A DNA stretch of 64,000 nucleotides, from positions 62,001 to 126,000 of the IMG/VR virus record IMGVR_UViG_3300030380_005901. One strand, written 5' to 3'. Under the pieces are notes generated by a model. The model was not told where the DNA came from. It was given only the letters and a program-made list of their open reading frames with translations, and did no database searches. A program made the translations under genes and the position numbers. This document shows, one piece after another, positions 4,498-64,000 of the stretch (positions within the stretch are counted from its first letter, which is position 1; each line of letters opens with the position of its first letter). This DNA comes from a virus.

Positions 4498-5661
4498 TTA
4501 ATCGGTTCTAATTATGAGATAAAGGACTCCATTCATATTTATTTCATCGTAGTTGCCATCATAACTAGCTAAGGCTTCATAACCTTCATCATCTTTAATT
4601 GATTCTCTGAGACTATCTTCATCCAACCAGAAAAAACTATCTATAGCACTTTCTCTATCAAAACCTAGATTATCAACAAAATAACTAACACCATCACTTC
4701 TAATTTCATCCACAGTATTTTGGGTATAATTTTCTCTTAACTCATCTTTGGCTTGTTCTACAAATTCTCCTTGATAAATTTCTTGTAGGTTTTCCATCTC
4801 AGTTTCTAAGTCATCTAACTCACTTTGTAAATCATTAATCTCTTCTTGTTTCAAATCTATCTCCTCTTCTAATCTATTGTACTCATCTTCATCTTCTTCA
4901 TAATCCAAGTCCTCTTGTTCTGATTCTAACTCCTCTTTTTCCGACTCTAAGTCATTCATACGTTCTTCGATATCATCTTTTTCACTGTCTTTTTCTTCCC
5001 ATTGCTCTTTGGCATCATCCATATCATCATAACCAGCTTCTTCTAATATCTCTTCATCTGTCATATCACTTAATCTATTATCCGCCTCTTCTTCCGCAAA
5101 TTGTTCAATGGCGGAATCGTTTGGTTCTAAATGATTTTCCAAATACCAATCTTCCATATATTCAACACCATCATCTATTCTACTTTGTGCGTAATCATTC
5201 ATTGCGTCATCCATCTCATCTTCATCACCTATTGCATATGTTCCACCATCATCTTCGTTTTCATACTGATCTAAACCATAGTGACTATAACCACCCTCTT
5301 CCATTAAAAATGGTGGTAAGTCAAAATATTCTGCTAGTGCTAATTGTTTGTCATCAAATTCAGAGTTAATCTTTTCCATATCTAAATCAACCTTTTCTAA
5401 ATCATCGTAGGTTTCTCCCTCATCCTCATCCACAAGTTGTTCCATATAAAGATATGTTAATCTCATTTTAAGTTCCATATCCTCAATATATAATGTATCA
5501 GTTAAGAACCTCCAAATCTCTGCACCATCAGACCAATCCACATCTTTATCTGCCATTAATTGGAGAAATCTCTTATCTATTGGAGTAAGAGTAATTAATG
5601 TAGGTTCTTGCGTTTCCTTTTGTTCTTCTTCTACTTGTTCGTATAGTTTAAATAATTTCAT
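4498..5661 (-). CDS. Acidic coiled-coil protein with N-terminal tag
   Basis: A 387-residue, very acidic protein starting MKLFKLYEQVEEEQ. Residues about 35-60 contain LTPIDKRFLQLM, matching the TPVDRKLLQFM stretch of the partial gene at 1-142. Residues about 205-300 are a long charged coiled coil (EERMNDLESEKEELESEQ and similar heptads). The C-terminal region (about 300-387) is globular. The N-terminus fits the shared tag of this cluster. It is separated by one base from the next gene. No enzymatic motif is seen. Confidence 0.8.
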   Translation of the reverse strand: MKLFKLYEQVEEEQKETQEPTLITLTPIDKRFLQLMADKDVDWSDGAEIWRFLTDTLYIEDMELKMRLTYLYMEQLVDEDEGETYDDLEKVDLDMEKINSEFDDKQLALAEYFDLPPFLMEEGGYSHYGLDQYENEDDGGTYAIGDEDEMDDAMNDYAQSRIDDGVEYMEDWYLENHLEPNDSAIEQFAEEEADNRLSDMTDEEILEEAGYDDMDDAKEQWEEKDSEKDDIEERMNDLESEKEELESEQEDLDYEEDEDEYNRLEEEIDLKQEEINDLQSELDDLETEMENLQEIYQGEFVEQAKDELRENYTQNTVDEIRSDGVSYFVDNLGFDRESAIDSFFWLDEDSLRESIKDDEGYEALASYDGNYDEINMNGVLYLIIRTD

Positions 5662-15992: not shown

Positions 15993-16343
15993 TGGTGGAG
16001 ATGGGGGGATTCGAACCCCCGTCTTGCCCGTCATCCATATGAGATCTTTTTACAGGTTTAGGATAAGTTTTTCTAAACTTCCAAAAATTGATAGATTTTC
16101 GTTAACTGTAAGGTCGTCACTGGCAAATCACTATCATTACCAATATCTCTCGATACAACACCATTTACTTCCTTTGACATCTTAGCAACTTACAAGTATA
16201 CTCAGTTACATGATGTGCTTAGCATCTAATCTAATTAGGCTGCCATAGCATACTCAGCGTTTCCGGCTAAGGTTTTGATGAAGGTCATCACCCATACCTG
16301 AATCTTCACACTTCTCTACGTCAATCAATTCCGTGTCATCCCC
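15993..16343 (-). ncRNA. ssrA: tmRNA (transfer-messenger RNA)
   Basis: 351 nt. The 3' end holds a tRNA T arm (GGGGG-TTCGAAT-CCCCC) and CATCTCC-A-CCA. The 5' end GGGGATG pairs with CATCTCC over 7 bp and includes a G3:U70 pair, the identity element for alanyl-tRNA synthetase. The tag frame at 16235-16267 reads AGNAEYAMAA then TAA, so the full tag is A-AGNAEYAMAA. The terminal CCA is encoded. Length, tag and ends all fit a working, one-piece tmRNA that rescues stalled ribosomes and marks proteins for proteolysis. No SmpB gene lies in the window; ClpP does (22386-23096). Confidence 0.95.
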
Positions 16344-22385: not shown

Positions 22386-23096
22386 TTATTTTTCGAGTTT
22401 TTCAATTATTTCATCAATAATTCCATATTCCAAAGCTTCTTCGGAGTCTAACCAATTATCTCTATTACAATCTGCTAAGACTCTTTTTTTAGTTTTACCA
22501 CAAAAATCTGCTAACATCTGAAATAATTTGTCATTATACTTTTCTGCTTCTGCTAGACTAATTTTCATATCTTCTACGTGCCCTTGTGCACCTGCAGATA
22601 CTTGATGTAACATTACTTTAGAATTAGGTAGAGCAAACCTTTTCCCTTTTGTCCCATTACCTAATAGAATAGATCCCATAGAAGCTGCCATACCAGTATT
22701 AATAGTCACAATATCGGATTTAACATAATTCATAACATCTACCATACTTAATCCTGACTTAACTGATCCACCTGGCGAATCTACGTGTACAATTATATCT
22801 CGACATTCAACGTTATCTAAAAACATTAATTGTGCTTGTACAACAGTACTCATTTGATCATTCACCGGACCCGCAACCCACAATATCCTATCCATCATTA
22901 ATCGTGAGAAAATGTCCATCTGAGTTACTCTCATTTCTCTTTCCTCTAATATATAAGGTGTGAGACTAGAAGTTACCATACTATTATTGTAGACACTATC
23001 TTGTAGTTTTTCCCAATAGTGAAACTGTATTCCACTAATACCTAAATGCTTCATAGCATAATTCTTAAATTCACTGTAAAAATCTAAATTCATCAT
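22386..23096 (-). CDS. clpP: ClpP-like ATP-dependent protease subunit
   Basis: 236 residues. The ClpP fold begins near residue 60 with RLMMDRILWVAGPVND; the serine nucleophile is S139 in TGMAASMGS, the histidine is H164 in VMLHQVSAG, and an acidic residue follows in DNWLDSEEA (about 213-217). The HVDSPGGSV oxyanion loop is intact. Residues 1-55 are an N-terminal extension not usual for cellular ClpP. Phage ClpP may mature virion proteins or join host ClpX to change degradation; the tmRNA in this genome makes the second idea attractive. Confidence 0.93.
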   Translation of the reverse strand: MMNLDFYSEFKNYAMKHLGISGIQFHYWEKLQDSVYNNSMVTSSLTPYILEEREMRVTQMDIFSRLMMDRILWVAGPVNDQMSTVVQAQLMFLDNVECRDIIVHVDSPGGSVKSGLSMVDVMNYVKSDIVTINTGMAASMGSILLGNGTKGKRFALPNSKVMLHQVSAGAQGHVEDMKISLAEAEKYNDKLFQMLADFCGKTKKRVLADCNRDNWLDSEEALEYGIIDEIIEKLEK

Positions 23097-25236: not shown

Positions 25237-26259
25237 TCAAATATTTAAAGACTCAATTATTATTTTATCTTCTTTACTTATTTCTTTAGGGATGTCTACC
25301 CAAACTTCTACCATCATATCTCCTATGTTACCAGCTCTCTCCAAACCCTTTTTAGGTACTCTAAGTATATGCCCAACATCTGTTCCTTCTTTAATGGTAA
25401 TTCTTATTTTACCGTCTAAAGTTTCTAATTCTGGAGAACAACCCAAAACTAAGTCTTTATATGATAACTTAATTCTTTGGTGTATATCTTGATTATTTCT
25501 TTTAAAAACATTATGAGGTATTTCTACCATATTAATAATCAAATCACCACTAACCCCCCTCTTAATTGAGTTGCCTTTACCACGTATGGTAATATATTCA
25601 CCATCCATAACACCTTTAGGGATTTCAAAATCTATGGTTTCCTCTTTTAATTTGACACCTAACCCATTACATTTTTTACAAGGTTTTACTATAACACTAC
25701 CCTCACCATTACATTTTGGACAAATAGTCGTATTTTGAATTTTTCCAAATGGGGTACTAGTAATTCTAACCACTTGTCCTGTACCTCTACATGCGTTACA
25801 TGTCGATGTCTCACCCCCTTGAGAATTACAATCATTACATGAATCATTCCTTTTATATTTTATCTTCTTATATATACCACTATGGATATCTTCTAAAGAT
25901 AATTTCATATTAACTCTAATATCTGTCCCTTTAAATCTTTTTGGTCTTTGAGATCTACCACCAAATGGATTTCCCTCTTCACCGAAAAAAGAACTAAAGA
26001 TATCGCCCATATCAAACCCACCACCAAATGGGTTACCCCCTCTACCATCAGGTGTGCCATATGTATCATAGTTTTGTCTTTTTTGAGAATCTGATAAAAC
26101 ATCATACGCTTCTGCTACTTCTTTAAATTTTTCTTCCGCCGCAGGCTCATTATTTACGTCTGGATGATACTTTTTAGATAGTTTCCTATAAGCTTTTTTG
26201 AGTGTTGAGTCATCAACATTTTTATCAACTCCTAAAACTTTATAATAATCTTTTGTCAT
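25237..26259 (-). CDS. dnaJ: Type I DnaJ (Hsp40) co-chaperone
   Basis: 340 residues. J domain at residues 1-70 with YHPDVN (HPD motif), a G/F region (about 75-105), four CxxCxGxG zinc motifs (about 138-205: CNDCNSQG, CNACRGTG, CPKCNGEG, CKKCNGLG) and a C-terminal substrate-binding domain. It should stimulate host DnaK and bring unfolded phage proteins to it. Full-length phage DnaJ is uncommon. It lies divergent from the plus-strand gene at 26312. Confidence 0.95.
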   Translation of the reverse strand: MTKDYYKVLGVDKNVDDSTLKKAYRKLSKKYHPDVNNEPAAEEKFKEVAEAYDVLSDSQKRQNYDTYGTPDGRGGNPFGGGFDMGDIFSSFFGEEGNPFGGRSQRPKRFKGTDIRVNMKLSLEDIHSGIYKKIKYKRNDSCNDCNSQGGETSTCNACRGTGQVVRITSTPFGKIQNTTICPKCNGEGSVIVKPCKKCNGLGVKLKEETIDFEIPKGVMDGEYITIRGKGNSIKRGVSGDLIINMVEIPHNVFKRNNQDIHQRIKLSYKDLVLGCSPELETLDGKIRITIKEGTDVGHILRVPKKGLERAGNIGDMMVEVWVDIPKEISKEDKIIIESLNI

Positions 26260-27487: not shown

Positions 27488-27784
27488 TTAGATAAACTTT
27501 TTTATAGATTCTGTTATTAAATTTTTAGGTGGTAAACCACTTTGTCTCCAAACTATTTTACCTTCTTTAAATAGTAATAGTGTAGGTACACTCCTAATAC
27601 CATATTTTGTTGCCGCATCATGATTCTTATCTATATCCACTTTTATAATTTTAGTTTCGTCACCCATTTCTGATGCAACTTGTTCTAATAATGGTGACAT
27701 CATTTTACAGGGTCCACACCAAGTAGCATAAAAATCTACTAGTGTAGGTTTTTCGGATTTTATCAATTCATCAAATTTTCCCAT
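27488..27784 (-). CDS. trxA: Thioredoxin
   Basis: 98 residues with FYATWCGPCKMMSPLL (WCGPC redox centre at about residues 22-26), the Asp/Lys pair of the buried core (VDID-K) and SVPTLLLF with the cis-proline. A complete short thioredoxin that should be kept reduced by host thioredoxin reductase; likely partners are ribonucleotide reductase or other phage enzymes. It is the next gene after the ncRNA terminator. Confidence 0.95.
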   Translation of the reverse strand: MGKFDELIKSEKPTLVDFYATWCGPCKMMSPLLEQVASEMGDETKIIKVDIDKNHDAATKYGIRSVPTLLLFKEGKIVWRQSGLPPKNLITESIKKFI

Positions 27785-27820
27785 AATATTTTTATTATTA
27801 AATATACTAAAGTTTTAACA

Positions 27821-27855
27821 AAAAAAAAGAGGATACTAATTAAAATATCCTCTTT
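27821..27855 (-). terminator. Rho-independent terminator of the ncRNA transcript
   Basis: Minus strand AAAGAGGATA, a 10-nt loop, TATCCTCTTT and a run of T. Its position, more than 400 nt past the DUF2828 stop with no ORF between, defines the 3' end of an RNA. Confidence 0.88.
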
Positions 27856-28278
27856 CAATAATGTGGTGTCGGAATGATGATTCAGATTTCATTAACGAAG
27901 GGTCTGTCCCTACGGTAGATTTGGTAACTCAGCCCCACTGAGTGTCTTTGTTTTACTTGAGACAAAATCAAGAGGTATGTTTTACAACCTAAAGTGTGAG
28001 ACTATCTCACGTTTAAACTTACCTATGGTTGATCCCTTTATAAATTTTGGGTAAAAGGGATAATAAAACCTCTGTTCTACTTTCTAGTTTTAAGTTAGAG
28101 TTTGCAGAAACCATTCGTTTTACACCAATATAAAAAACGGTAGCGGAATTGTATGTGTTTGTTTTTTTCTCCCCCCCATTACTGAAAGGTGGTGGGTCAA
28201 ACTCCCACTTTCTCGATCTTGGTTTTAGTTTTTTAATTTGCCGAAACCATTCCTCTATACCATTTTTATGTCAAAGAA
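27826..28278 (-). ncRNA. Structured non-coding RNA beside the DUF2828 gene
   Basis: About 450 nt without a credible ORF, the longest non-coding stretch in the window, ended by a strong terminator. On the minus strand several hairpins are visible: GTGGG-AGTTTGA-CCCAC (5-bp stem with 7-nt loop, like a tRNA T arm), ATCCCTTT...AAAGGGAT, GTGAGA-TAG-TCTCAC, TGTCT...AGACA and ACTCAG-TGGGG-CTGAGT. A roughly 50-nt imperfect direct repeat around GAATGGTTTC-(G/T)-GCAAA starts at 28252 and 28116. It follows DUF2828 directly, so it may be cut from the same transcript. No match to RNase P, 6S or SRP RNA was seen. A Y RNA-like partner is a hypothesis. Confidence 0.65.
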
Positions 28279-29730
28279 CTATACCGTTATATTCTCATAT
28301 CTAGTACTATCAACAGTTTTCATCATTACTGAGTAAGGAGTTAAATTCTCCCCATTCAATACTGACTTTAGTATTGATGGACTAAATCCTGAGATTAAAG
28401 CGGTGTTCATCTCATCCTGTTTAACAGGAAAATTATCATTACCTCTGGAATGAAGATTCCAAAATACTATTGTTGGTATTTCATAACCAGCTTCTTCATA
28501 TTTTGTTTTAATCATCTCCATTGCAGTAGGATTCCAATCAGAAGATTCTTCCCAACGATTTCCTGTCGCTGCATCGAATTCCATATCTGATAATATTAAT
28601 ATTTTTGTCGGCATTTCCCCTAAAGGAATGTTATGAGTTACTGCCTGATTCAACAATAAATCAAATGTTGCCGTTAGATTTGTACTCATTCCCCAATGTG
28701 CACTTCTTAACTGTTGTAATTTACCTTTTAGTGAATCACCAGTTAAGTACTGTAAACTCGGTGTTGAAGAAAAAGTTAAAAAACTATCTTTAAATGCTCC
28801 TTCATTCCTTTCTGAAATATAGATACCTAATGATATTGCTACATCCATACAAGTAAGTGAATCATTACTACCTGCGGAACAACTCATTGAACCTGAAACA
28901 TCAACCATTGGTAAAACTCTATCCTCATTACCTTCCATAAAGTTAGGTAAGTTATCCCATTGATTTTGAGAAACTGTTTCATCAACACCAGTATACAAAG
29001 TCTTTAAAATATCGTAAGGGTATAGTGCTCCACTATTAACTGTAGTTTTACCTTCTTTAAGGTCTTCTACAAATTGGTTATATCCCTTTTCATCTCTTCT
29101 CCAAAACGCTTTTTGGTATCTTGCCGATGCCAATGAAGGTATTTTAGAGTAGTCAATTTCTTTCCATCGATTTGAACACATCTTAGTTTCTACTACATCT
29201 GTCAAACCTACTAATCTTTTTCTTAATTCTTTTGGGGAAACTTTTAAAGCTCTTCTAACTTTGTTAAATACTTCACCTTTACGAGGCATCCACTTAGCAC
29301 ATAAACCGTCTTCGTTACCTAAGGCAGTTACGATTAAGTCTATAACCATACCTTCTAACTCACTACCAATTAATGTAAATACATCATCCCATCTTCCGTA
29401 TTCAGAAATAAGATGAACATTCTTTTTAACAACATCTGGTGAAAGTTTTACTAAGTGAGAAATAACATCTCTAAAGATTTGTCTCTCACCGGCACCTTCT
29501 CTAACATCTCTTACCCAAAAAAGGATACGAGTTGCAACTAATGGGTTTTCACTATATGCTTTGGAAAATTTTTCAATTAAGGTAACTTTATTTTTCCCTC
29601 TCATAGCCCCAATAGAGAAAAATAAATCTACACAGTTATTTAGTGTAGTATTATTTGTAGACATACCGTTTTCGGTTAATTGCGTTTTTTCTTCCTCCAT
29701 TTCTCTGTATTTAGTCATTGAATTAGCCAT
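28279..29730 (-). CDS. DUF2828 protein: TROVE-like helical region plus vWA domain
   Basis: 483 residues from MANSMTKYREMEEEK; the start is fixed by the promoter at 29771-29802, which excludes the longer frame. Residues about 25-250 are helical, with FWVRDVREGAGERQIFRDV, EYGRWDDVF, AKWMPRKG and KIPSLASARY, as in DUF2828 and the related TROVE domain of Ro60. Residues about 270-480 are a vWA fold with a full MIDAS: PMVDVSGSMS, then T (NLTATFD) and LSDMEFD. Ro60 binds Y RNA and misfolded RNA in its helical ring; DUF2828 function is not established. The adjacent structured RNA makes an RNA-binding role plausible. Confidence 0.88.
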   Translation of the reverse strand: MANSMTKYREMEEEKTQLTENGMSTNNTTLNNCVDLFFSIGAMRGKNKVTLIEKFSKAYSENPLVATRILFWVRDVREGAGERQIFRDVISHLVKLSPDVVKKNVHLISEYGRWDDVFTLIGSELEGMVIDLIVTALGNEDGLCAKWMPRKGEVFNKVRRALKVSPKELRKRLVGLTDVVETKMCSNRWKEIDYSKIPSLASARYQKAFWRRDEKGYNQFVEDLKEGKTTVNSGALYPYDILKTLYTGVDETVSQNQWDNLPNFMEGNEDRVLPMVDVSGSMSCSAGSNDSLTCMDVAISLGIYISERNEGAFKDSFLTFSSTPSLQYLTGDSLKGKLQQLRSAHWGMSTNLTATFDLLLNQAVTHNIPLGEMPTKILILSDMEFDAATGNRWEESSDWNPTAMEMIKTKYEEAGYEIPTIVFWNLHSRGNDNFPVKQDEMNTALISGFSPSILKSVLNGENLTPYSVMMKTVDSTRYENITV

Positions 29731-29770
29731 AATTTTGGTTGTTTTTATATTGTTCTTTAAAAGTGTGATA

Positions 29771-29802
29771 CAAATATAGGGCAAATATATTTAAAAGTCA
29801 AA
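29771..29802 (-). promoter_or_regulatory. Host-type promoter TTTG-N20-TATATTTG
   Basis: Minus strand TTTG (29802-29799), 20 nt, TATATTTG (29778-29771), a perfect Bacteroidota promoter. The leader to the ATG at 29730 is about 35 nt. Confidence 0.8.
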
Positions 29803-29820: not shown

Positions 29821-30519
29821 TTAAAAAGTTAATTTATAACCCACCCCTCTTACAGATTTAAAGAAGGTATTAGGGGTTTTGTCCTTCTCAAATATTTTTC
29901 TTAAAGACAGTATAACATTATCTATTGTTCTAGTTTTTATGTAAACATCATACCCCCATATCTTTTCTAAAATTTCTTCTCTAGACACAACTTCATTATT
30001 TTTACTAATTAAAAGTTTTAATAATTTAACTTGTCTTTGGGTTAATCTAAATTCATCACCCACCTCATTACTGACAATAAATGATTTAAAGTCAATACTA
30101 TGATCACCAATTTCTATTTTATCAGTAGTCATATTACTAACGTTTTTACCAAATAATTTAATATAATTTATGGTTTTATATTTTATTTCTTCATAAGACA
30201 AAGGTTTTACTAAGTAATCATTTACACCATTCCGTAATAATTGTAACATTTTGTTTTCATGATCGTGAAAACTAATATATATAATAGGTGTTTTACTATC
30301 CTCTAATCTTATGGTTTGAACTAAGTCTAACCCTTCGATATCCACTAATTTTTCATCTAAAATTACAACATCAAACCTAGATTCTCTTATTTTTGTAAGT
30401 CCCTCTTTTCCATGTATTACGGCAACACACTCAAAATTTTGGGTGTCGAATTGTTCAGTAATTGATGAATGGATTTCTTTATCTACACCAATTATTAATA
30501 TTCTATTTTTTTCCTCCAT
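29821..30519 (-). CDS. OmpR-type response regulator
   Basis: 232 residues. Receiver domain at about 5-118 with phospho-acceptor Asp in VVILDEKL and Lys in DYLVKPLS; the usual acidic pair near residue 10 (DD) is altered to a VDKE stretch. Winged-helix domain at about 135-230: LTQRQVKLLKLLISKN, EILEKIWGYD, TRTIDNVILSLRKIF and FKSVRGVGYKL. It should bind DNA and adjust transcription. No histidine kinase is in the window, so it may act without phosphorylation or be driven by a host kinase. Such regulators are rare in phages. Confidence 0.92.
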   Translation of the reverse strand: MEEKNRILIIGVDKEIHSSITEQFDTQNFECVAVIHGKEGLTKIRESRFDVVILDEKLVDIEGLDLVQTIRLEDSKTPIIYISFHDHENKMLQLLRNGVNDYLVKPLSYEEIKYKTINYIKLFGKNVSNMTTDKIEIGDHSIDFKSFIVSNEVGDEFRLTQRQVKLLKLLISKNNEVVSREEILEKIWGYDVYIKTRTIDNVILSLRKIFEKDKTPNTFFKSVRGVGYKLTF

Positions 30520-61981: not shown

Positions 61982-64000
61982 TTAATAAATATTTCCTCTA
62001 TTTGTGACAATTTCTATAGGAATTGTCGTACTATAGGTAACACTTGTTATTATTTCCCCAACAATAGGTGTATATAATTTTTGGTTTTTAACTCTATAAA
62101 TTAATTTATCACCAGCAACCGCTTCACTTAAATCAATAATCAAAGAATAATTATTTTGTCCTAATACATAAGGTGTAGATGCAATATATTTTACGTCCTT
62201 AAAATCTTCGTCACTTACATCTGTAACTTCTATAGTAAATAATCCTTCTTGACATATTGTAGGTGCATTAGGTATTACCCAAGATAACTCAGGTTTATTT
62301 GTTTCCACACTTCCAAATACACCACTAATAGGATTAAAAAACACTTGAATTAAATCACCTTTTTTAATTTCTACTAAAATTATTAGTCTTCTAGGATCTG
62401 TATCTGATCTCATATACTCTATATTATATGAAAGTTGGTTACCATTTAAAGTTAACCCTACATCACCTATTGCATCAACCGGTAAATAATACTCATATGT
62501 TTGTTGAGTAGTATTATAATATAATTTATCTTCTTTCCCTTGTTGTCCTGTAGGTCCTGAAGAAATAGGTTCAGTTACGGTATAATTATCAATTGATAAT
62601 TCATTTGGATTACCGTCCTCCACAAATGCTAACGTAACCATTCTATCTGCTAATGTTGGTGTAAAAAAGTCTATATAAAATGCATTAGGTGTGTCTGTAT
62701 TAGCACTATATTCAACCCCTTTTGATTGAATTACCCCATTATAAGACACTAAGGGATCTGATAAAGAGTTATAAAAAAATCTAGTGTCTCCAGATTCAGT
62801 TTTAAATGAAGTTACTCTTAAATTACTGATGGTATTAGGTTCTCCTGGCTCATTAATGAAGGTTGGTTCGTCCGCTTCAAAAAGATTTAAAAAGTACCAA
62901 TCTGTTTCGGGATTATATAAATTATATTCCGTACCTCTTTTATAGTTATTAACACTATTTCTTCTTCTACCTAATTCTTTTTGTATTAATGTTTTAATCG
63001 GATAATCAAAATATCCTTTTATTATAAATTCCCCCTCATCTATTTCATTTAAAGGTATTGTTAATGTAGTACCACTTTCTCCACTAAATAAAGTATAATC
63101 AAAATCCTCTACTAAAACGGGATTATCATTAAATACACCTCTCTCACAATCAAAAGAATAAATTTCTGCAGTGAAATTCAATTTATTTGGTTGTATGACA
63201 TTTGAAACGTCATTTAATATTAAGTCAAACTCAAAAGGAGTTCTATCACGATCACTTATATAAACATATCTATCACAAGATAATGTCTTACTAGTTATAA
63301 CATTTGGTAATCCCCATGTGGACGTAATACCTGTACTGATACCTGTTAATGAAAACCCTTCTTCTTCAAAATTACATTGTACCCCTAATCCGTTAGGTCT
63401 ATGTATAATGTGTAAAAAATCTTTTAGATAATCAGCAACATATATTTTTTCATCAGGACCCATTTGTAACGCACCTAAACTAGCAGTAATAGGTAAGTCA
63501 GCCACAATAATACTATTATCTACCATTTCAGTAGAAGAAGTGTAAGTTAAATCATATTGTATTATTTTATTAGATGCACCATCACTTACATAGAATTTAG
63601 AAGAATCGGATGAAAATTCTAAACCATAAGGTCCGTTTATAAAAAATGTGTCACCACTTATTAATAACTCATTAGACAATGTACCACCTGTATTATTAAA
63701 ATCTAATACTTGAATTAGGTTCTCATCATAAAATAGTGAAACTAATTTACTACTATCTGGTGACGTTTTCATATACCCCCTATTAGTATTATATGTAGTA
63801 CCTGTATCACTTATTACTGCAGATGCTATACCACCACTCTTTACCCTAAACGAATAAAATTTAGAATCTCCACTAGTGTGTGTTATAACCCAATAATCAG
63901 TTTCATTAAAATGAGAACAAGCGGTAACTTTTTCACAAATAGGGGTACTAATTAAAGGCATATTTTTAAAAATAATTTTACCATCTCCACCTGCCCTATT
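61982..64000 (-). CDS. Partial CDS: beta-propeller virion protein resembling flavobacterial surface proteins
   Basis: The frame stays open past the internal ATG at 63961 to the window edge (GGDGKIIFKNMPLISTP), so the true start lies outside; at least 673 residues are seen. The first 240 hold propeller blades: CEKVTACSHFNETDYWVITH, YMKTSPDSSKLVSLFY, LEFSSDSSKFYVSDG, LQMGPDEKIYVADY and TWGLPNVITS. These motifs are typical of gliding/type IX-linked surface proteins of Flavobacteriia. The rest is beta-rich and fibre-like. It may have been captured from a host for adhesion. Confidence 0.75.
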   Translation of the reverse strand, partial: NRAGGDGKIIFKNMPLISTPICEKVTACSHFNETDYWVITHTSGDSKFYSFRVKSGGIASAVISDTGTTYNTNRGYMKTSPDSSKLVSLFYDENLIQVLDFNNTGGTLSNELLISGDTFFINGPYGLEFSSDSSKFYVSDGASNKIIQYDLTYTSSTEMVDNSIIVADLPITASLGALQMGPDEKIYVADYLKDFLHIIHRPNGLGVQCNFEEEGFSLTGISTGITSTWGLPNVITSKTLSCDRYVYISDRDRTPFEFDLILNDVSNVIQPNKLNFTAEIYSFDCERGVFNDNPVLVEDFDYTLFSGESGTTLTIPLNEIDEGEFIIKGYFDYPIKTLIQKELGRRRNSVNNYKRGTEYNLYNPETDWYFLNLFEADEPTFINEPGEPNTISNLRVTSFKTESGDTRFFYNSLSDPLVSYNGVIQSKGVEYSANTDTPNAFYIDFFTPTLADRMVTLAFVEDGNPNELSIDNYTVTEPISSGPTGQQGKEDKLYYNTTQQTYEYYLPVDAIGDVGLTLNGNQLSYNIEYMRSDTDPRRLIILVEIKKGDLIQVFFNPISGVFGSVETNKPELSWVIPNAPTICQEGLFTIEVTDVSDEDFKDVKYIASTPYVLGQNNYSLIIDLSEAVAGDKLIYRVKNQKLYTPIVGEIITSVTYSTTIPIEIVTNRGNIY

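Follow-up and report, generated by a model that had tools for sequence, protein, structure and literature searches.

What is encoded in the roughly 455 nucleotides (nt) that directly follow a DUF2828 gene in a virus genome, and do they belong with the protein? The gene lies in a stretch of 64,000 nt (the window), positions 62,001 to 126,000 of the 159,562-bp IMG/VR virus record IMGVR_UViG_3300030380_005901. A first-pass annotation of the sequence had proposed that the DUF2828 protein and a structured RNA behind its gene are paired in the manner of Ro60 and Y RNA. Here, the modelled protein was found to resemble Ro60, a human RNA-binding autoantigen, and the sequence behind the gene was found to be a conserved RNA linked to DUF2828. 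We conclude, with a probability of about 0.77, that the locus encodes a ribonucleoprotein composed of a Ro60-like DUF2828 protein and a dedicated two-module noncoding RNA, the transcription, binding and function of which we infer.

The DUF2828 gene and the RNA behind it

The locus contains the following features.

29771..29802, minus strand: promoter TTTGAC-N18-TATATTTG of the DUF2828 gene, Bacteroidota −33/−7 type (match to TTTG/TAnnTTTG)
28279..29730, minus strand: DUF2828/DUF7788 (phrog_850) gene, 483 amino acids (Pfam, PHROG and structure model)
28267..28279, minus strand: boxA-like element GUUCUUUGACAUA between stop codon and RNA (conserved in relatives; boxA identity putative)
28136..28264, minus strand: RNA module 1, outer helix AAUGGUA/UACCGUU, inner helix GGAAU/AUUCC, signature UUUCGGCAAA
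27864..28127, minus strand: RNA module 2, outer helix UGGUGU/ACACCA, inner helix GAAUG/CAUUC, signature UUUCUGCAAAC
27819..27855, minus strand: intrinsic terminator AAAGAGGAUAUUUUAAUUAGUAUCCUCUUUUUUUUUG closing the RNA, hairpin plus U9 (folding and sequence)

Profile searches with the product of 28279-29730 matched Pfam DUF7788 (E 2.6e-51) and DUF2828 (E 1.9e-32) as well as phrog_850 (4e-150), which PHROG labels "RNA-binding protein." An AlphaFold model, made with an alignment of 25 homologs (predicted local distance difference test score, 80.8; predicted template modelling score, 0.77), had a HEAT-like helical ring and a vWA domain, the N-terminal part being helical. Moreover, the metal ion-dependent adhesion site (MIDAS; DxSxS...T...D) was invariant in the 25 homologs at D277, S279 and S281 (within DVSGSM, 277-282), T350 and D382, such that the helical region and intact MIDAS of the first-pass annotation were both upheld. 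When the model was compared with the PDB, nine Ro60/TROVE chains were the only matches at E<=1e-3, and the alignments were whole-length with template modelling (TM) scores of 0.5-0.6. Structure matches included 9kop (E 2.7e-9) and 2i91, Ro60 with misfolded RNA (E 1.5e-7), and 9l5y, the Ro60 of Thermus phage phiLo, matched with TM scores of 0.59/0.61. The top PDB hits by sequence profile were also TROVE proteins (E 2.4e-4). TM scores of 0.5-0.6 indicate that the architecture is the same and the relationship distant. We conclude that the DUF2828/phrog_850 protein, as modelled, is Ro60-like in fold.

An open reading frame (ORF) search found no ORF of at least 60 amino acids in 27821-28278, in agreement with the gap of about 450 nt noted earlier. 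The approximately 455 nt behind the gene constitute a conserved RNA of two homologous modules in tandem, and this tandem, with helices of the GGAAU/AUUCC type around C(N)GCAA, had been missed in the first reading. In each module the inner 5′ strand precedes the signature (UUUCGGCAAA in module 1, UUUCUGCAAA in module 2) and the inner 3′ strand precedes a G, which in module 1 directly follows the inner helix. The module 1 signature reads CAGCAA in relatives, and module 2 holds a large conserved internal domain, GACCAUAGG.... Covariation, which had been suggested as a check, was detected as compensatory changes at 28/81 predicted pairs among 9 homologs and, counting pairs changed on both sides, at 36/80 among 15 homologs, where the cells counted are not independent events. 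Folding of the single sequence against shuffles gave z −3.0 for the RNA strand and z −2.5 for the opposite strand. Because the opposite strand folds nearly as well, the single-sequence fold is not decisive and the evidence for structure is comparative.

Both ends of the predicted transcription unit resemble known signals. The promoter fits the Bacteroidota consensus TTTG/TAnnTTTG, and the terminator closes the RNA with a strong hairpin and U9; each had been called at first pass. The boxA-like element (core GUUCUUUGA) is kept in L005, L006, L026, L028, L029 and L032 (L numbers are locus handles), and it precedes the RNA too in L031, L034 and L037, though another ORF intervenes there. Its sequence hints at rRNA-style (ribosomal RNA) antitermination of a noncoding transcript.

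At least five hairpins had been described in the RNA, and these were found again; the likening of one of them to the T-arm of a transfer RNA (tRNA) did not hold. That hairpin, at 28192-28208 (GUGGG-AGUUUGA-CCCAC), has 5 bp and 7 nt, but its loop lacks TTCRANN. The window RNA had no tRNA match even at E<=10 and no TTCRANN T-arm, Rfam gave no match at the gathering threshold and no relevant one at E<=10, and blastn against phage records returned chance pieces only.

Linkage of the RNA module to DUF2828

An 18-mer around the module 2 signature was scanned across all IMG/VR contigs and matched 33. A same-strand DUF2828 ORF ends 164-270 nt upstream of the RNA in 24 of these, which is 24/24 of the testable contigs. 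Two further contigs end before the position of the gene, one being the L028 contig, which has DUF2828; in the remaining seven, neither the 3′ partner strand nor DUF2828 is present, and these appear to have matched by chance. The window-type RNA was never seen without DUF2828 in IMG/VR, occurrence in genomes lacking the gene being what the first-pass annotation held to speak against its proposal. Relatives L005, L006 and L026-L032 have CAGCAA at the place of the window signatures, and in a marine clade one RNA has a window-type module 1 followed by a module 2 of the general type described below.

The general form of the module is [variable 7-9 bp stem]-n(2-4)-CAGCAA-[loop]-[complement]-G. Such hairpins adjoin DUF2828 in FelixO1, Campylobacter F356, Listeria LP-048 and Mycobacterium Faith1 and also in Enterococcus EA1, Staphylococcus S-CoN_Ph7 and Bacillus 2S-4. 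In two separate sets, none of the 4096 hexamers was more strongly associated with a stem 2-4 nt upstream than ACAGCA/CAGCAA (24/50 observed versus 1.2 expected, and 83/414 versus 9.5). A collection-wide pattern was then defined that constrained CAGCAA, the outer bases of the stem and the 3′ flank but left four inner pairs free. The free positions were fully complementary in 84/93 matches, with 20 different tetramers, versus 8.9% for shuffled partners; a control pattern with one added spacer base had 45 matches in the whole collection, of which 1/45 was complementary. Of the cells in an alignment of 40 sequences, 89.4% pair and 99 are compensatory, versus 24 after shuffling, and the pairing signal was lost on sliding the partner strand; because the set was partly picked by stem, the alignment result is descriptive.

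A covariance model built for the general module, R1, matched 15/16 whole reference phage genomes with DUF2828. Among genomes independent of its training, 8/9 were matched (KVP40, Ahp1, PX29, Ci1, LPCS28, DLP6, Milchi and LR756508), Vibrio phage D486 being the one missed, and 46/47 matches in the reference genomes were on the DUF2828 strand. Further IMG contigs were matched in 25/33 cases, with up to eight module copies per genome, and 26/80 DUF2828 loci in bacterial genome records were matched at E<=0.01, although binning may have put some phage contigs among these records. No match was seen in 24 controls, T4, T5 and phiKZ among them; because phage G, counted in the 24, proved to encode a divergent DUF2828, the figure for records lacking the gene is 0/23. 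Conversely, when contigs were sought with only the RNA pattern, DUF2828 was present in 24/79 fragments, always on the same strand, and further pattern-found contigs carried it in 25/37 cases at >=20 kb and in 18/20 at >=50 kb. The control-pattern sets had it in 0/45 fragments and 0/44 records.

Local searches around DUF2828 loci placed 141/141 module matches on the strand of the gene. In 27/31 viral loci the nearest module ends no more than 700 nt before the gene begins, often at 3-70 nt. Elsewhere, modules lie 3-15 kb from the gene within tRNA arrays (KVP40, PX29, Ci1 and DLP6) or between tRNA genes (FelixO1, KVP40, DLP6 and Milchi), and in Faith1 a 369-nt unannotated gap behind the phrog_850 gene holds three tandem modules. 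The question of whether DUF2828 genes in other genomes have a conserved RNA beside them, raised at first pass, is answered by this co-occurrence across phages and bacteria. That one RNA building block, often with parts of a tRNA incorporated, goes with DUF2828 in such varied genomes suggests an RNA-protein particle of a type as yet undescribed.

tRNA-like domains and neighbouring genes

In modules with long loops, a canonical T-arm (5 bp, TTCRANN) was present in 30/45, versus 0.17 by shuffling. After the T-arm comes the acceptor 3′ strand, which a short cap separates from the acceptor 5′ strand that it pairs with; this was so in 19/29 modules tested, versus a mean of 6.2 and a maximum of 14 in controls, and a D-loop-like GG comes next in 14 of the 19. 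The clearest cases are L094:2104-2229, L068:4815-4938 (with a UUCG cap), L063:154-270, L043:1956-2082 and, in FelixO1, L089:4919-5051. We conclude that these modules are, as judged from their sequences, circularly permuted tRNAs in which the CAGCAA stem replaces the anticodon arm.

Other relatives have different arrangements. In L046:4608-4706 and L047:2003-2108 the tRNA order is normal and the CAGCAA stem replaces the acceptor. Cronobacter LPCS28 and Citrobacter Ci1 have tRNA-like genes of 113-121 nt with an enlarged anticodon arm bearing a CAGCA element. The genes with a long CAGCA arm in place of the anticodon loop are as follows.

L084:4365-4485: tRNA-like gene
L084:4495-4607: tRNA-like gene
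L085:4352-4466: tRNA-like gene
L085:4473-4586: tRNA-like gene, annotated as tRNA-Pseudo

These genes scored 41-57 bits with the Rfam tRNA model where matched and were missed by ARAGORN. Directly after the L084 modules, at 4776-5052, lies an RNA that resembles transfer-messenger RNA (tmRNA): it ends GCUCGU...ACGAGCGCCA, has a T-arm and a UUCGACGG element, and was called by no tool. L085 has a similar sequence. The window itself has a phage-encoded tmRNA at 15993-16343 with the tag GNAEYAMAA.

In the window, an OmpR-like response regulator gene (phrog_731, 29821-30519) lies directly upstream of the DUF2828 gene on the same strand. Genes for DnaJ-like (25237-26259), ClpP-like (22386-23096) and thioredoxin (27488-27784) proteins give the neighbourhood a quality-control flavour. 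An RtcB-like ligase gene adjoins the Listeria locus. In G052, G054 and G076 (the records of L163, L166 and L209), an insert of approximately 0.9-1.1 kb splits DUF2828 at about codon 130, which suggests an intron or homing element. The closest relative in the bacterial genome collection, L286 (QCKH01000004.1, 83,794 bp; protein identity, 79%), is filed under a Prochlorococcus single-cell genome, the Bacteroidota-like promoter style of the window nonetheless, and is possibly a phage contig given the wrong host.

The proposed particle and known systems

In the proposed particle, each module would present a 5′ stem strand, 2-5 nt, C(A/N)GCAA and, after the 3′ strand, a G. The stem would be the element recognized by the DUF2828 protein, the counterpart of the Ro-binding stem of Y RNA, and the RNA hanging from it would be the effector part, tRNA-like in many relatives and, in the window, a large structured insert. 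The effector part would gate the ring of the protein or link it with RNA enzymes such as nucleases, and effector parts of tRNA-like form would mimic tRNA. The tRNA-array neighbourhood, the tRNA mimicry and the ligase gene at the Listeria locus suggest a putative function in tRNA metabolism or repair. That the particle handles structured RNA of phage and host, tRNA above all, during infection is a tentative proposal, to which we give somewhat less than even odds. Held just as tentatively is a broader view, in which DUF2828 and the CAGCAA-stem RNAs would be a Ro60-like branch apart, very widespread and dominated by phages, with its own RNA recognition code, onto which tRNA mimicry was grafted repeatedly (permuted, direct and in anticodon arms) as a decoy or repair platform in phage-host tRNA conflicts.

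Several results weigh against a Ro60-like particle. In the Pfam search the 483-amino-acid protein did not match TROVE (PF05731), and vWA_Ro60 stayed below threshold (E 0.083); the protein is therefore Ro60-like by fold and not a TROVE member by the Pfam test. None of the Rfam Y RNA and YrlA models reached threshold, tRNA (and, in the window, tmRNA) being the only families that did. R1 had no significant match in the window genome, in which the module loops are approximately 100 and 240 nt and CGGCAA and CUGCAA replace CAGCAA; because R1 is blind to these modules, their kinship to the family rests on the CAGCAA relatives and the marine clade. R1 also had no match in Vibrio phage D486, phage G and 8/33 IMG contigs, all of which bear DUF2828, and 12/37 module-bearing contigs of >=20 kb are without DUF2828, mostly as plausible fragments. 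Of the pairing first proposed, the Ro60-like fold and the linkage to an RNA are retained, the hairpin read as T-arm-like is not canonical and Rfam gives no Y RNA match, and the RNA is a probable partner on comparative sequence grounds.

If the CAGCAA stem acted mainly in cis, the DUF2828 protein would bind its own leader or trailer and regulate its own mRNA, with no role in trans. This is a serious partial rival because the module ends 3-70 nt before the gene in many relatives, part of the wider placement within 700 nt in 27/31 viral loci, and the window RNA moreover directly follows the stop codon with no obvious promoter of its own. A mainly cis-acting role is nevertheless unlikely, given modules 3-15 kb away in the tRNA arrays of KVP40, PX29, Ci1 and DLP6, as many as eight copies per genome, elaborate tRNA-like domains and the ORF between gene and RNA in L031, L034 and L037. 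The cis-regulatory and particle roles may both be true. Modules between tRNA genes, as in FelixO1, KVP40, DLP6 and Milchi, would also be expected if the hairpins served phage tRNA arrays as processing or packing elements, linked to DUF2828 merely through large tRNA-rich phages. We consider this improbable, as T4 and T5 bear tRNAs yet have neither DUF2828 nor the module, in the window, Faith1 and other Bacteroidota-type loci the RNA adjoins DUF2828 with no tRNA array around it, and module and gene occur together in bacterial genome records.

Phages commonly carry RNAs of the GOLLD/ROOL kind, clustered with tRNAs, and the window RNA is comparable in size and complexity. That it is such a large ornate RNA, or a relative of tmRNA or RNase P, unrelated to the neighbouring protein, is very improbable in view of the Rfam result and the strict linkage to DUF2828. 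Least probable of all are DNA-level inverted repeats serving as recombination or mobile-element sites: perfect stems of variable sequence would fit cruciforms, but the gene-strand bias of 141/141, a single-strand CAGCAA conserved on one side only, tRNA arms inside the modules and the terminator after the window RNA argue for an RNA. We retain the ribonucleoprotein as the preferred and most economical reading. Under it, the orphan family DUF2828, with 682 phage records in GenBank alone and also present in bacteria, acquires a specific RNA partner whose recognition signature can be tested, and unannotated gaps in phage tRNA arrays gain an identity. If true, Ro60-Y RNA biology would reach phages of Salmonella, Listeria, Staphylococcus, Enterococcus, Mycobacterium, Vibrio and Bacteroidota, and the role of Ro60 particles in bacteria would become testable during infection in cultured systems.

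A literature search returned no earlier description of an RNA partner of DUF2828, although subscription papers or preprints may hold one. The tRNA-like domain of YrlA is circularly permuted, and the permuted T-arm, capped acceptor and D-arm of the relatives follow the same layout, with the protein stem at the place of the anticodon arm. Unlike YrlA, the modules have another stem signature, some relatives are in normal tRNA order, and the window RNA is without a recognisable tRNA-like domain. A decoy role has been proposed for the tRNA-like part of YrlA, Rsr-Y RNA particles aid PNPase in the decay of structured RNA, and the Salmonella locus has the order rsr-yrlBA-rtcBA (PMC7790460).

Phage-encoded Ro60 folds have precedents in Thermus phage phiLo (9l5y) and in the "ROT/TROVE RNA-binding protein" of jumbo phages (PMC7824862); these are TROVE proteins, whereas DUF2828 is not. 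The mycobacteriophage "Ro-like RNA binding protein" of Faith1 and Finnry is phrog_850 too, annotated by remote similarity, and its annotations give no partner RNA. In Ro60/Rsr proteins the outside of the ring binds Y RNA, and the hole accepts the ends of misfolded RNA. Like a Y RNA, the noncoding RNA found near the Ro60-like gene has a conserved stem in which its 5′ part pairs with its 3′ part. Like the Ro60/Rsr-Y RNA systems (Deinococcus Rsr-Y RNA-PNPase and Salmonella), the DUF2828 system combines a ring and vWA fold with a noncoding RNA alongside, and by analogy the RNA would end in a protein-proximal stem and carry a variable effector part. Unlike them, it has a protein that is not TROVE by Pfam and an RNA of the stem-CAGCAA form, it occurs mostly in phages, and its genomes usually have several modules, or tandem modules in one RNA. 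We conclude that DUF2828 and the stem-CAGCAA RNA, with their predicted transcription, binding and function, represent a new branch of Ro60-Y RNA-like particles.
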